A stretch of 64,000 nucleotides of DNA from Albidovulum sediminis (GTDB lineage Bacteria; Pseudomonadota; Alphaproteobacteria; Rhodobacterales; Rhodobacteraceae): the NCBI RefSeq assembly GCF_025380365.1, contig NZ_JAOCQF010000001.1, positions 496,001 to 560,000 on the forward strand, written 5' to 3'. Position 1 is the stretch's first letter. Each line of letters opens with the position of its first letter. Below, in pieces: positions 4,199-7,706 of the stretch. The translations under genes were made by a program, and so were the position numbers. Below the pieces are notes generated by a model. It saw only the letters and a list, made by a program, of their open reading frames with translations, did no database searches and was not told where the DNA came from.

Positions 4199-5782
4199 TC
4201 ACGAAGCCGACTTGACGTCCTCCGCGGGCTTGGTCTTGGCCCGCCGCACGACAAGGTTGTTCAGCGCATTGACATAGGCCTTGGCCGAGGCAACGACGGT
4301 GTCGGTGTCCGACGACTGGCCGGTGACGATCTTGCCGCCCTCCTCCAGACGCACGGAAACGGTGGCCTGCGCGTCGGTTCCTTCGGTCACCGCGTGGACC
4401 TGGTAGAGCGCCAGCCGCGCGGTATGCGGGAACAGCTTCTTGACCGCGTTGAAGGTCGCGTCCACCGGCCCGTCGCCCTGCGCCGTCACCTGGTGATCGA
4501 CCCCGTCCACGGTCAGGATCAGGTCGGCGGACTGCGGCGCCTCGGTCCCGCAGATCACGCGCAGGAACTTCACCTGCAGGTGGTCGCCCGCCGCTTCCGA
4601 GGCGGTGTCGGTCATCAGCGCGACCAGGTCGTCGTCGTAGACCTCCTTCTTGCGGTCGGCGAGCGCCTTGAAGCGCACGAAGACATCGTTGAGCTGGTTG
4701 TCGGCCAGCTCGTAGCCCAGTTGCCGCAGCTTGTCGCGCAGCGCCGCGCGGCCCGAATGCTTGCCCATGACGAGGTTCGAGGCCGACAGCCCGATATCCT
4801 CGGGGCGCATGATCTCGAAGGTCTGGGCGTTCTTCAGCATCCCGTCCTGGTGGATGCCGCTTTCGTGGGCGAAGGCGTTCTTGCCGACGATGGCCTTGTT
4901 GAACTGCACCGGGAAGCCCGACACCGCGGCGACCCGGCGCGAGATGTTCATGATCTTCGTGGTGTCGATGCCGGTGCGGTAGGGCATGATGTCGTTGCGC
5001 ACCTTCAGCGCCATCACCACCTCTTCGAGCGCGGTGTTGCCGGCGCGTTCGCCCAGGCCGTTGATCGTGCACTCGATCTGGCGCGCGCCCGCCTCGACCG
5101 CGGCCAGCGCGTTCGCTGTCGCCATGCCGAGGTCGTTGTGGCAATGGGTGGCGAAGGTGATCGTGTCGGCCCCCGGCACGCGGTCCAGCAGCATGCGGAT
5201 CAGGTCGGCCGATTCCCTGGGCGCGGTGTAGCCCACGGTGTCGGGGATGTTGATCGTGGTGGCGCCCGCCCTGATCGCGATCTCCACCACCCGGCAGAGG
5301 TAGTCGTGTTCGGTCCGCGTGGCGTCCATCGGCGACCACTGCACATTGTCGCAGAGGTTGCGCGCGTGGCTGACCGTCTCGTGGATGCGCTCTGCCATCT
5401 GGTCCATGTCCAGATTGGGAATCGCGCGGTGCAGCGGCGAGGTGCCGATGAAGGTGTGGATGCGCGGACGCTTGGCGTGGCGCACCGCTTCCCAGCAGCG
5501 GTCGATGTCCTTGTAGTTCGCGCGTGCGAGGCCGCAGATCACCGCGTTGCGGGATTGCCGGGCGATCGCGCTGACCGCCTCGAAGTCGCCCTCCGAGGCG
5601 ATGGGAAAGCCCGCCTCGATGATGTCGACGCCCATCTCGTCGAGCATCTCGGCGATCTCGAGCTTTTCGGCATGCGTCATGGTCGCGCCGGGCGACTGTT
5701 CGCCGTCCCTCAGCGTGGTGTCGAAGATCAGGACGCGGTCCTGTCGGGACTTCGCGTCGGCGGTTCTGGTGTCGTTGGTCAT
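4199..5782 (-). CDS. leuA: 2-isopropylmalate synthase
   Basis: First committed step of leucine synthesis: condenses 2-oxoisovalerate with acetyl-CoA; cytosolic homodimer, normally inhibited by leucine. The 527 residues fit the long LeuA form, with an HMGL-like TIM barrel first (DTTLRDGEQSPGATM near residue 22; metal site HCHNDLGMATAN near residue 214), then the regulatory LeuA dimer domain in the last 140 residues (ATVSVRLEEGGKIVTGQSSD). GGAAG upstream of the ATG supports the start. A leucine-rich leader peptide and stem-loop lie 47-162 bases upstream, pointing to leucine-dependent attenuation. No other leu genes are adjacent. Confidence 0.97.
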   Translation of the reverse strand: MTNDTRTADAKSRQDRVLIFDTTLRDGEQSPGATMTHAEKLEIAEMLDEMGVDIIEAGFPIASEGDFEAVSAIARQSRNAVICGLARANYKDIDRCWEAVRHAKRPRIHTFIGTSPLHRAIPNLDMDQMAERIHETVSHARNLCDNVQWSPMDATRTEHDYLCRVVEIAIRAGATTINIPDTVGYTAPRESADLIRMLLDRVPGADTITFATHCHNDLGMATANALAAVEAGARQIECTINGLGERAGNTALEEVVMALKVRNDIMPYRTGIDTTKIMNISRRVAAVSGFPVQFNKAIVGKNAFAHESGIHQDGMLKNAQTFEIMRPEDIGLSASNLVMGKHSGRAALRDKLRQLGYELADNQLNDVFVRFKALADRKKEVYDDDLVALMTDTASEAAGDHLQVKFLRVICGTEAPQSADLILTVDGVDHQVTAQGDGPVDATFNAVKKLFPHTARLALYQVHAVTEGTDAQATVSVRLEEGGKIVTGQSSDTDTVVASAKAYVNALNNLVVRRAKTKPAEDVKSAS

Positions 5783-5828
5783 GGCTTGTCTTCCGTCTGT
5801 GTCCCTAGCGTTGGCTTGGCGCTGGTCA

Positions 5829-5864
5829 CCTCTGAGCGGTCGCGCCGGAGGGCACGCTCAGAGG
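5829..5864 (-). promoter_or_regulatory. Attenuator stem-loop in the leuA leader
   Basis: Perfect 10-bp inverted repeat: CCTCTGAGCG at 5829-5838 and CGCTCAGAGG at 5855-5864, with a 16-base loop, 46 bases upstream of the leuA start. On the transcript the 5' arm contains the stop codon of the leader peptide, so a ribosome finishing the peptide would block the stem. A second, smaller hairpin (CGCGCC/GGCGCG, 5897-5911) lies inside the leader coding region. No U tract follows the 3' arm, so the mechanism may not be classic intrinsic termination. Confidence 0.65.
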
Positions 5865-5944
5865 CAGCTAAGGAGGAGAAGGCCACGGCGGCAGCCCGCG
5901 CCGAGGGCGCGCGAAGGCAGAAGGATATGCCGGATCCGTGTCAT
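5858..5944 (-). CDS. Leucine-rich leader peptide of leuA (28 aa)
   Basis: A 28-codon ORF starting ATG at 5944 and stopping TGA at 5858, just upstream of leuA. Eight of 28 codons are leucine, including four in a row (CTT CTC CTC CTT, residues 22-25) seven codons before the end of the reading frame, stop included. The stop lies inside the 5' arm of the attenuator stem. The design is that of a transcription-attenuation leader: leucine starvation stalls the ribosome at the leucine run and changes downstream folding. There is no Shine-Dalgarno sequence before the ATG, and a TATAGT box lies only 7 bases upstream, so the mRNA may start at or next to the AUG. The same leaderless arrangement is known for trpL in Sinorhizobium meliloti. 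Confidence 0.75.
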   Translation of the reverse strand: MTRIRHILLPSRALGAGCRRGLLLLSCL

Positions 5945-5951
5945 GGGCGCG

Positions 5952-5957
5952 ACTATA
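5952..5957 (-). promoter_or_regulatory. -10 box of the leu leader promoter
   Basis: TATAGT on the minus strand, matching the sigma-70 -10 consensus in five of six bases. It ends 7 bases before the leader-peptide ATG, so the expected start site is about 5944-5946. The pyrimidine-rich stretch upstream shows no strong -35 box. Confidence 0.5.
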
Positions 5958-6029
5958 CGTGCCGCGAAGGAAAGGAAAAGCGAAAAATGACACCGTCGGG
6001 CGCCGGGCCTGTCGGCCCCGCGCGCGCCT

Positions 6030-7514
6030 TCAGTTGCCGGTGCCTTCGGCCGGCGCGGCGGGTGCGGCGGGTGCAGTTCCCTCGGGCGCCGTTCCCTCGG
6101 GGGTTGCGGCCGGGGCCGCGTCGGGCGCGGTCAGCGCATCCCCGTCCCAGGTGCCGGTCGCCACCTCGCCGGTGGCGTAGCGCAGCGTGCCCTGGCCCTG
6201 GCGGCGGCCGTTCCTGAAGGTGCCTTCGTAGACGTCGCCGTTGGGATAGGTGGCCACGCCCTTGCCGTCGATCTCGCCCGCCTTCCACTGGCCGGAATAG
6301 CGGAAGCCGTCGGTCATCACGATGTCGCCCTCGCCCTCCCGCTTGCCCGCCACGAAACCGCCGGTATAGACGGTGCCGTCGGCATAGACCGCGATCCCCT
6401 GACCCTCGCGCGCGCCGTCCTTCCAGTCGCCGTCATAGGAATAGCCGTCGGGGTAGGTCATCTTGCCCTTGCCGTGGTTCTTGCCGTCCTTGAACCCGCC
6501 TTCGTAGACAAGGCCGTTGGCATAGACCGCCTTGCCCTGTCCCTCGATCACGCCGGCCTTCCAGTCGCCCTCATAGGTGGCGCCGTCGGCGTAGGTGATA
6601 TTGCCCTTGCCGTCGGCCTTGTCGGCCTTGAACTGGCCCTCGTAGACCGAGCCGTCCGGGTAGGTCGCCTTGCCCTGGCCCTCGATCCGCCCGCCCGCCC
6701 AGTCGCCGTCGTAGACATAGCCGTCGTGGCCGCGGAAGGTGCCCTTGCCCTGGCGCGCGTCGTTCGCGAAGCCGCCTTCGTAGACATCGCCGTTGGCATA
6801 GGTGACCTTGCCGGTGCCGTGGCGCTTGCCATCGGCCAGAAGCCCCTCGTAGACGTCGCCGTTGGGCTGGGTCAGCTTGCCGAGGCCGTTGATCTGGCCT
6901 TCCTTCCAGGCGCCTTCGTAGATCAGCCCGTCCGCGGTCGTCAGCTTGCCCTGTCCGGCGCGCTGGCCGCGCAGCATGTCGCCCTCGTAGACGGCGCCGT
7001 CGGGGTAGGTGATGCGGCCCTTGCCTTCCTTCACCCCCATCACCCAGTCGCCTTCGTAGACATAGCCGCCGGGGCTTTCCATCCGGCCCTTGCCGTGGTG
7101 CAGCGCCTTGACGAAGCCGCCGGTGTAGGTGACGCCATTGGCATAGCGGGCCACGCCCTCGCCCTCGATCTCGCCTGCGACCCAGTCGCCCTCATAGGTG
7201 CCGCCGTCGGCGAAGGTGATCTTGCCCTTGCCCTGCGGCTTGCCCTTGACGAAGGCGCCCTCGTAGACCGAGCCGTTCGGATAGCGCGCGATGCCCTGGC
7301 CGAGGATCTCGCCCTCGACCCAGTCGCCGGAGTATTCGTAGCCGTTGGGCAGCCGGTAGGTGCCGCGTCCGTGCTGCTTGCCGTCCTTGAAGGTGCCTTC
7401 GTAGATGCCGCCGTCCTCGTACTGCTTGGACACCACATCCTGCGCCGCAGCCGGGCCCCAGGCGCAGGCAAGCGCCAGCGCCAGACCACAAGCCGCAATA
7501 CCCTTCGTCACCAT
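6030..7514 (-). CDS. Secreted MORN-repeat protein
   Basis: Function unknown. The ATG at 7514 gives 494 residues with a signal peptide (GIAACGLALALACAWG, cleavage near AAAQ), so the protein is probably periplasmic or outer-membrane associated. From about residue 35 it is almost entirely MORN repeats of 23 residues (consensus VYEGDW...GKGKVTYPDG): 18 clear units plus a degraded last unit (VATGTW). An Ala/Pro/Glu-rich tail of about 30 residues follows. MORN arrays form elongated beta structures, in some proteins binding lipids or dimerising. The repeats are similar at DNA level, so copy number may vary between strains. An in-frame upstream start at 7553 would bury the signal peptide and is less likely. 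Confidence 0.85.
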   Translation of the reverse strand: MVTKGIAACGLALALACAWGPAAAQDVVSKQYEDGGIYEGTFKDGKQHGRGTYRLPNGYEYSGDWVEGEILGQGIARYPNGSVYEGAFVKGKPQGKGKITFADGGTYEGDWVAGEIEGEGVARYANGVTYTGGFVKALHHGKGRMESPGGYVYEGDWVMGVKEGKGRITYPDGAVYEGDMLRGQRAGQGKLTTADGLIYEGAWKEGQINGLGKLTQPNGDVYEGLLADGKRHGTGKVTYANGDVYEGGFANDARQGKGTFRGHDGYVYDGDWAGGRIEGQGKATYPDGSVYEGQFKADKADGKGNITYADGATYEGDWKAGVIEGQGKAVYANGLVYEGGFKDGKNHGKGKMTYPDGYSYDGDWKDGAREGQGIAVYADGTVYTGGFVAGKREGEGDIVMTDGFRYSGQWKAGEIDGKGVATYPNGDVYEGTFRNGRRQGQGTLRYATGEVATGTWDGDALTAPDAAPAATPEGTAPEGTAPAAPAAPAEGTGN

Positions 7515-7706
7515 GACTGCCCCCGCAATACCCGATTGCTCCGCCGGAACCATCCCCGGCGAAGCGTCTTGCCGGAAGCCTATTGAAGGGTAGAGGCAGA
7601 GGCAAGCACCCCGCGCCTCGTGCCCCGGTCCCGCGCCGGGTGGCCGCCTTGCCGCTTCCGCTGGCGCGCCAGTCTGCTAAGAGGGGGCAAACGCATGGGG
7701 TGCCGC

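Follow-up and report, generated by a model that had tools for sequence, protein, structure and literature searches.

Attenuators are commonly found by looking for terminators, and the leuL attenuator of Escherichia coli and Salmonella combines a leader led by a Shine–Dalgarno (SD) sequence with an intrinsic terminator and four-segment alternative folding. In the part of the source available, the leuL leader is a 28-amino-acid leucine peptide ahead of leuA, as is the one described here (PMC6123439). For trpL of Sinorhizobium meliloti, the available portions of two papers describe an RNA that begins at the AUG and carries consecutive codons for the end-product amino acid (PMC7298713, PMC10117765). 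In the actinobacterial LEU element, as far as the accessible text of its description goes, a leader open reading frame (ORF) with a run of Leu codons precedes leuA, a pseudoknot is present and a base stem is formed between the Leu codons and the leuA SD (Seliverstov et al. 2005, PMC1262725). Here we describe a leader in Rhodobacterales that is probably, in our judgement, a cis-acting leucine sensor controlling the initiation of leuA translation.

In the window (the whole stretch of DNA analysed, 64,000 nucleotides from Albidovulum sediminis), the leader and leuA lie on the reverse strand, with the following features.

5952–5957, reverse (−) strand: −10 box TATAGT of the putative leader promoter, from sequence and conservation in the genus.
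5944, (−): predicted transcription start, the A of the leader AUG, from the −10 spacing and the absent SD.
5858–5944, (−): leader ORF of 28 codons, MTRIRHILLPSRALGAGCRRGLLLLSCL, with its AUG at 5944 and its stop codon UGA at 5860–5858.
5936–5940, (−): 5′ arm of candidate helix P1, CACGG, pairing with 5888–5884.
5884–5888, (−): 3′ arm of candidate helix P1, CCGTG, from the genus alignment.
5867–5874, (−): 5′ arm of the base stem, UCCUUAGC, overlapping Leu codons 24–25 and the Ser codon.
5855–5864, (−): 5′ arm of hairpin P3, CCUCUGAGCG, containing the stop codon.
5842–5846, (−): 5′ part of the pseudoknot, GGCGC, in the P3 loop.
5829–5838, (−): 3′ arm of hairpin P3, CGCUCAGAGG.
5818–5822, (−): 3′ part of the pseudoknot, GCGCC, downstream of P3.
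5802–5809, (−): 3′ arm of the base stem, GCUAGGGA, with 19 nt between it and the leuA AUG.
5783–5801, (−): leuA ribosome-binding region, CACAGACGGAAGACAAGCC, with SD-like GGAAGA, from sequence.
4199–5782, (−): leuA, 2-isopropylmalate synthase, 527 amino acids (NF002087, 853.8 bits; TIGR00973, 669.1 bits; both above cut-off).

Read directly from the sequence, the leader holds eight Leu, four of them consecutive (codons 22–25), and its AUG stands 7 nt from TATAGT with no SD ahead of it. A stem of 10 perfect pairs (CCTCTGAGCG, 5864–5855, with CGCTCAGAGG, 5838–5829) includes the stop codon in its 5′ arm, and 46 nt (5828–5783) separate this stem from the leuA ATG at 5782. A first-pass annotation of this DNA had described the 28-codon, eight-leucine ORF ending in the 5′ arm of a perfect 10-bp stem before leuA, and also the TATAGT 7 nt before an AUG lacking an SD; both descriptions were borne out by the sequence, the second as a pattern that recurs across the leaders of the family, and the base stem and pseudoknot are additions to them. 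The upstream neighbour (6030–7553, reverse strand) encodes a 507-amino-acid protein with 13 MORN repeat stretches and is followed, upstream of the leader, by a terminator-like hairpin with ATTTTT at 6004–5989.

Inverted repeats of 10 bp with a loop of 3–30 nt begin at 15 positions in the window, overlapping positions included; 20 mononucleotide shuffles averaged 6.9. Such repeats are not rare in this G+C-rich window, and the stem was therefore rejected as significant by itself and judged by its conservation, which is what gives this predicted hairpin (P3) its significance. Seven of nine P3 pairs are invariant within the genus, and the letters GAGCGUGCC...GGCGCG are kept in most of the family loci printed; from these sequences, P3 appears more conserved than pairing alone needs. 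For P1, seen in the genus alignment only, one pair was changed on both sides.

Comparison of the leader among relatives, which the first-pass annotation had named as a check, found both Leu codons and stem conserved. All 22 genus genomes searched hold leuA, and in all 22 TATAGTC stands 7–8 nt before the ATG of a 28–30-amino-acid leader, which closes with four or more Leu followed by S(R/C/L)L and stops within the 5′ arm of the hairpin. Further downstream come GCGCC (GTGCC in L017) and then, in most, a motif like GCTAAGGA. Covariation within the genus was uninformative because the sequences are too alike (397 of 500 shuffles reached the number of pairs changed on both sides). A covariance model of 21 genus sequences (R1) matched 237 of 248 family genomes at E ≤0.1 (236 of 247 by genus). 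Among its 11 misses, four carry the element in a divergent form (G421, G427, G458 and G524) and three have leuA with no clear element (G433, G492 and G611), both as judged by eye; three others have no leuA match at 1e-60 (G437, G574 and G646), and one has only the inner part of leuA (G549). A second model, of 100 loci (R2), matched 119 of 121 order genomes at E ≤0.05 (58 of 58 by genus), and both misses, G427 and G730, carry a version like that of Paracoccus. Eight order genomes gave two R2 matches: in two of them, G665 and G733, the extra match is the one hairpin read on its opposite strand, and those in G680, G660, G652, G670 and G671 were taken as chance, the two that were opened lying inside frames that are HflC-like and AroA-like, as named from their translations. 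Second model matches also occurred in G605, G609 and G617 (family) and in G184 (class).

The leader was also found on plasmids. In Phaeobacter inhibens NZ_CP081282.1 (L149) it precedes an annotated 2-isopropylmalate synthase on a 17.9-kb plasmid, on which leuA, leader and rlmJ lie together. Paracoccus denitrificans NZ_CP141053.1 and P. pantotrophus NZ_CP038206.1 have a divergent leader on large plasmids (L361 and L362; leuA and leader lie on 1.5–1.7 Mb replicons listed as plasmids). The LeuA proteins of these three species are 75–82% identical to that of the window, a likeness that suggests an origin of the window in or close to Rhodobacterales. In two further loci the leuA frame has an internal stop as assembled (TAA in L370 from G421; TGA in L019 from G017).

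Leader ATGs were assigned by script in 95 of 97 family loci (L080 and L108 failed), one of the 95, at 237 amino acids, being an artefact. A −10-like hexamer 5–9 nt 5′ of the assigned ATG lies at 7 nt in 48 loci and at 8 nt in 28, the start having been picked among in-frame candidates partly through its match to such a hexamer and through being ATG. TATAGT itself is found upstream of 35 assigned leaders. At least five of six matches to it occur 4–10 nt before the AUG in 53 of 95 leaders, compared with none of 78 first-gene starts and, for ATGs at large in these loci, 1.4% of 2068. An SD-like tetramer stands ahead of 2 of 95 leaders and of 69 of the 78 first-gene starts, some of which are wrongly assigned. 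Because of the −10 spacing and the absent SD, we read the leader as leaderless; the circumstantial evidence in these sequences is strong, and the family leader RNA very probably begins at its AUG.

At least three Leu fall within the last ten codons in all 95 leaders, and the middle of the peptide varies in length and sequence among loci. Codons 6–7 are often His-Ile (window 5929–5924, reverse strand): CATATC stands at +16 to +21 in 43 of 95 leaders, and His codons in family leaders are CAT in 58 of 63. So strong a codon choice suggests conservation at the level of the nucleic acid, not of the peptide.

The predicted base stem and pseudoknot are backed by compensatory changes across the family. 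In an alignment of 100 loci fitted to the covariance model, 9 of 16 model pairs had both partners changed, the base stem contributing six, and none of 500 shuffles reached that total; the first base-stem pair changes from C-G to U-A or G-C and the fourth from U-A to A-U. Pairing was also scored without an alignment in a random 45 of 96 parsed family loci (two from the genus, and mostly from the better-scoring matches listed), by permutation with a null that leaves out phylogeny. The base stem scored 8.20 with true partners versus 6.88 with swapped ones (0 of 60 as high) and 6.15 with shuffled downstream sequence, and the pseudoknot 10.08 versus 9.21 with swapped partners (0 of 60 as high). The pseudoknot segment pairs downstream in 94 of the 96 loci, as GGCGC/GCGCC in 83, GGUGC/GCACC in 3 and G-U variants in 8; the pairing is absent in L133, and L113 was not parsed. 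Loci that we label Paracoccus-type, by likeness to P. denitrificans, have an altered P3 and loop, and in all 8 of them the letters differ yet remain complementary (CCGGGC/GCCCGG).

The 3′ arm of the base stem lies close to the next start codon. Eight of the 96 family loci have a cupin gene first in line, and all 8 have an arm that holds the SD and ends 5–9 nt before the ATG. The small gene directly after the leader in these loci is a Cupin_2 (Pfam) gene (L032, L035, L063, L070, L075, L077, L098 and L104); leuA stands behind it in L032, L035 and L063 and lies beyond the fetched stretch in the other five. Two of the 88 leuA-first loci had no base helix at threshold. The remaining 86 distances from arm end to start fell at 16–23 nt in 53 loci (19 in the window) and at 5–9 nt in 15; two values, 103 and 191, reflect start codons that were assigned wrongly, and chance accounts for some of the short helices. 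At 16–23 nt, an SD-like purine stretch lies between arm and start. The window belongs to this arrangement: 19 nt lie between the end of its arm and the AUG, and the SD-like sequence falls within them, outside the arm. By eye, UCCUUCUUC of the Leu codons CUC CUU CUU CUU in P. denitrificans (L361) can pair with GAAGAAGGA, which is the leuA SD; the script detected a 6-bp part only of this stem. With no SD in the arm of the window and of most leuA-first relatives, occlusion there would be steric.

We hypothesize that the leader acts as follows. The RNA would start at the leader AUG and be translated without an SD. When leucine is plentiful, the ribosome would reach the UGA in the hairpin and leave, after which hairpin, pseudoknot and base stem could form and hinder 30S binding, the base stem joining the Leu codons to sequence that precedes or overlaps the next gene's SD. 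When leucine is short, a ribosome held on the Leu codons would cover the 5′ half of the base stem and, we infer, free the leuA start region. With the stop codon inside the hairpin, a ribosome finishing the leader would open P3, and one at Leu22 need not. A stalled ribosome would thus cover a 5′ arm whose partner masks or abuts the next ribosome site, and for that reason we prefer control of translation.

Nested folds of the window, which omit the pseudoknot and assume a ribosome footprint, agree in direction with such an opening for a ribosome at Leu22 but not for one at Leu24. In the window, the probability that the base-stem arm is unpaired rises from 0.01 in the free RNA to 0.38 with a ribosome at Leu22, and that of leuA positions −19 to −1 from 0.57 to 0.78; with the ribosome at Leu24 the arm is at 0.36 and leuA −19 to −1 also at 0.36, less open than the free 0.57. 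Across 67 leuA-first loci, mean accessibility of −20 to +3 rises only slightly, from 0.55 to 0.61 (by more than 0.02 in 47 of 67), and that of the stretch just upstream by more, from 0.33 to 0.53. In 7 cupin-first loci accessibility goes from 0.46 to 0.56.

A possible but unlikely alternative is that the ribosome controls transcription termination of a Rho-dependent or otherwise non-canonical kind, release at the UGA leaving untranslated RNA and stalling preventing termination. The leader has the anatomy of an attenuator, its hairpin is stable and conserved in sequence, and a message on which leuA translation was blocked would by that alone lie open to Rho, which the available text of the actinobacterial paper raises for other terminator-less leaders (PMC1262725). 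The missing U tract counts against intrinsic termination only: there is no T run after the stem and no intrinsic terminator site between leader and leuA in the window (the sole site found is that at 6004–5989), and a U-rich tail (at least five T in the 8 nt after P3) is absent in 95 of 96 family loci and present in 1. The 10-bp stem was accordingly rejected as an intrinsic terminator, and the first-pass remark that no U tract follows it and that its mode may be non-classical fits this count. With a ribosome placed at Leu22, at Leu24 or on the stop codon, the window's minimum-energy folds showed no alternative antiterminator, and the base-stem arm holds the SD in the cupin-first loci and P. denitrificans. 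By contrast, S. meliloti trpL, in the available parts of its description, has a transcription terminator and an alternative antiterminator (PMC7298713, PMC10117765); here no U tract follows the hairpin, and it is the next gene's start region that is paired. The likeness to trpL drawn in the first-pass annotation thus held for the leaderless start, which is very probable, and was not supported for trpL-like transcription attenuation: besides the missing U tract and antiterminator, the pairing over the Leu codons engages the region where leuA translation begins.

It seems improbable that the element is chiefly a protein- or metabolite-binding RNA, with the near-invariant P3 as the binding site and the leader ORF secondary. 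Conservation of P3 beyond the needs of pairing would suit a binding site, and a protein partner was preferred by the authors of the actinobacterial LEU element, in the part of that paper available (PMC1262725). Against this, Leu codons and stop stand at a fixed place, with at least three Leu in the last ten codons throughout (95 of 95), and P3 and its loop differ in Paracoccus-type genomes. That the leader RNA or peptide acts in trans, like rnTrpL and peTrpL of S. meliloti, whose trpL is likewise leaderless and yields trans-acting products in the available text (PMC7298713, PMC10117765), is very improbable. The N-terminal codons do show some conservation (43 of 95 leaders have CATATC), but no intrinsic terminator is present that would set a separate RNA free, the middle part of the peptide differs between loci in both length and sequence, and the structure pairs in cis with the start of the next gene.

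Among known systems, the actinobacterial LEU element comes closest. As far as that description is available, the architecture is the same, a Leu-run ORF and a family-level pseudoknot both being present here; the LEU base stem pairs the SD, which is also paired in P. denitrificans and in 8 of 8 cupin-first loci, whereas the window arm lies upstream of the SD-like sequence (PMC1262725). We found no shared letters, the Rhodobacterales P3 core CTCTGAGCGTGCC occurring in none of 80 actinobacterial leuA loci fetched. Among the 22 of these loci that were printed, many have leaders like MQRALLLGRRDGV and a hairpin loop able to pair downstream, and several have a −10-like box close before the leader start; the stop codon, however, lies in the hairpin loop there and in the 5′ arm here (judged by eye). 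In the 43 of 80 loci that were parsed, loop pairing scored 10.30, above shuffles (7.68) though not above swapped partners (10.25), and pairing of Leu codons with downstream sequence scored 8.41, not clearly above either control (8.17 shuffled, 8.28 swapped). Actinobacterial LeuA is of the TIGR00970 type, against which the LeuA of the window scores 130.8 bits (cut-off 697.4). By analogy, then, the leader would work like the LEU element as described, and we do not file it as a homologous member.

A scan of window positions 5600–6200 with Rfam release 15 gave two matches at E ≤10, each falling well short of the gathering score and neither a leucine leader, and a scan of ten relatives gave none. 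In the literature searched we recognised no account of the element in Alphaproteobacteria, and an earlier description may exist: Vitreschak et al. (2004) and later work of the same group may list it.

Beyond the family, R2 matched 44 of 385 genomes of the class Alphaproteobacteria at E ≤0.05, five of them family members. When 25 non-family loci were opened, leuA (59–66% identical) stood directly downstream in 22; L178 had only a 27%-identical relative there, and L183 and L192 had none. A leuA match is present in 192 of the 385 genomes, and from about 150 listed matches we drew 79 further loci without regard to the model, a draw that skipped several genomes already found as model hits. At 53 of these 79 leuA genes, a frame open for at least 10 codons, with Leu near its end, stops in a hairpin beginning CC(C/T)C-stop. 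The same pattern was found in 6 of 1580 dinucleotide-block shuffles and in 21 of 79 reverse complements, a control that is not independent because hairpin arms have the same reading on either strand. Pro is the final residue of 50 of the 53 leaders. By eye, many non-family leaders (L321, L327 and L287 among them) carry CTN-CGA-CTT-A just before the hairpin, with the Arg codon CGA between two Leu codons.

In these 53 class leaders the base stem again exceeded swapped partners (7.54 versus 6.76, 0 of 60 as high), and the pseudoknot was unsupported (7.34 versus 7.01 swapped, 1 of 60 as high, and 7.15 shuffled). The base-stem arm often lies well before the SD, as judged by eye. Only one or two Leu occur in the last ten codons of 19 of the 53, and leucine sensing is therefore less certain outside the family. 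On balance we give roughly even weight to the view that this is an ancient, class-wide leucine switch of Alphaproteobacteria, in which the Leu codons of a leaderless leader build the stem that shuts off the start of leuA, and that its Rhodobacterales form, a pseudoknotted and SD-masking translational attenuator, represents a LEU-like design reached twice without shared sequence.

Together, these results point to a leader switch that lacks a terminator, is present in nearly every genome of a large family and has no Rfam release 15 match in the stretches scanned. If control of leuA translation works as proposed, it would account for the response of leuA to leucine in Rhodobacterales and would be a clear example of a sensor built on leaderless translation. 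It would also provide, in bacteria as tractable and harmless as Paracoccus denitrificans, a testable counterpart to the actinobacterial LEU element, which is itself unexplained.
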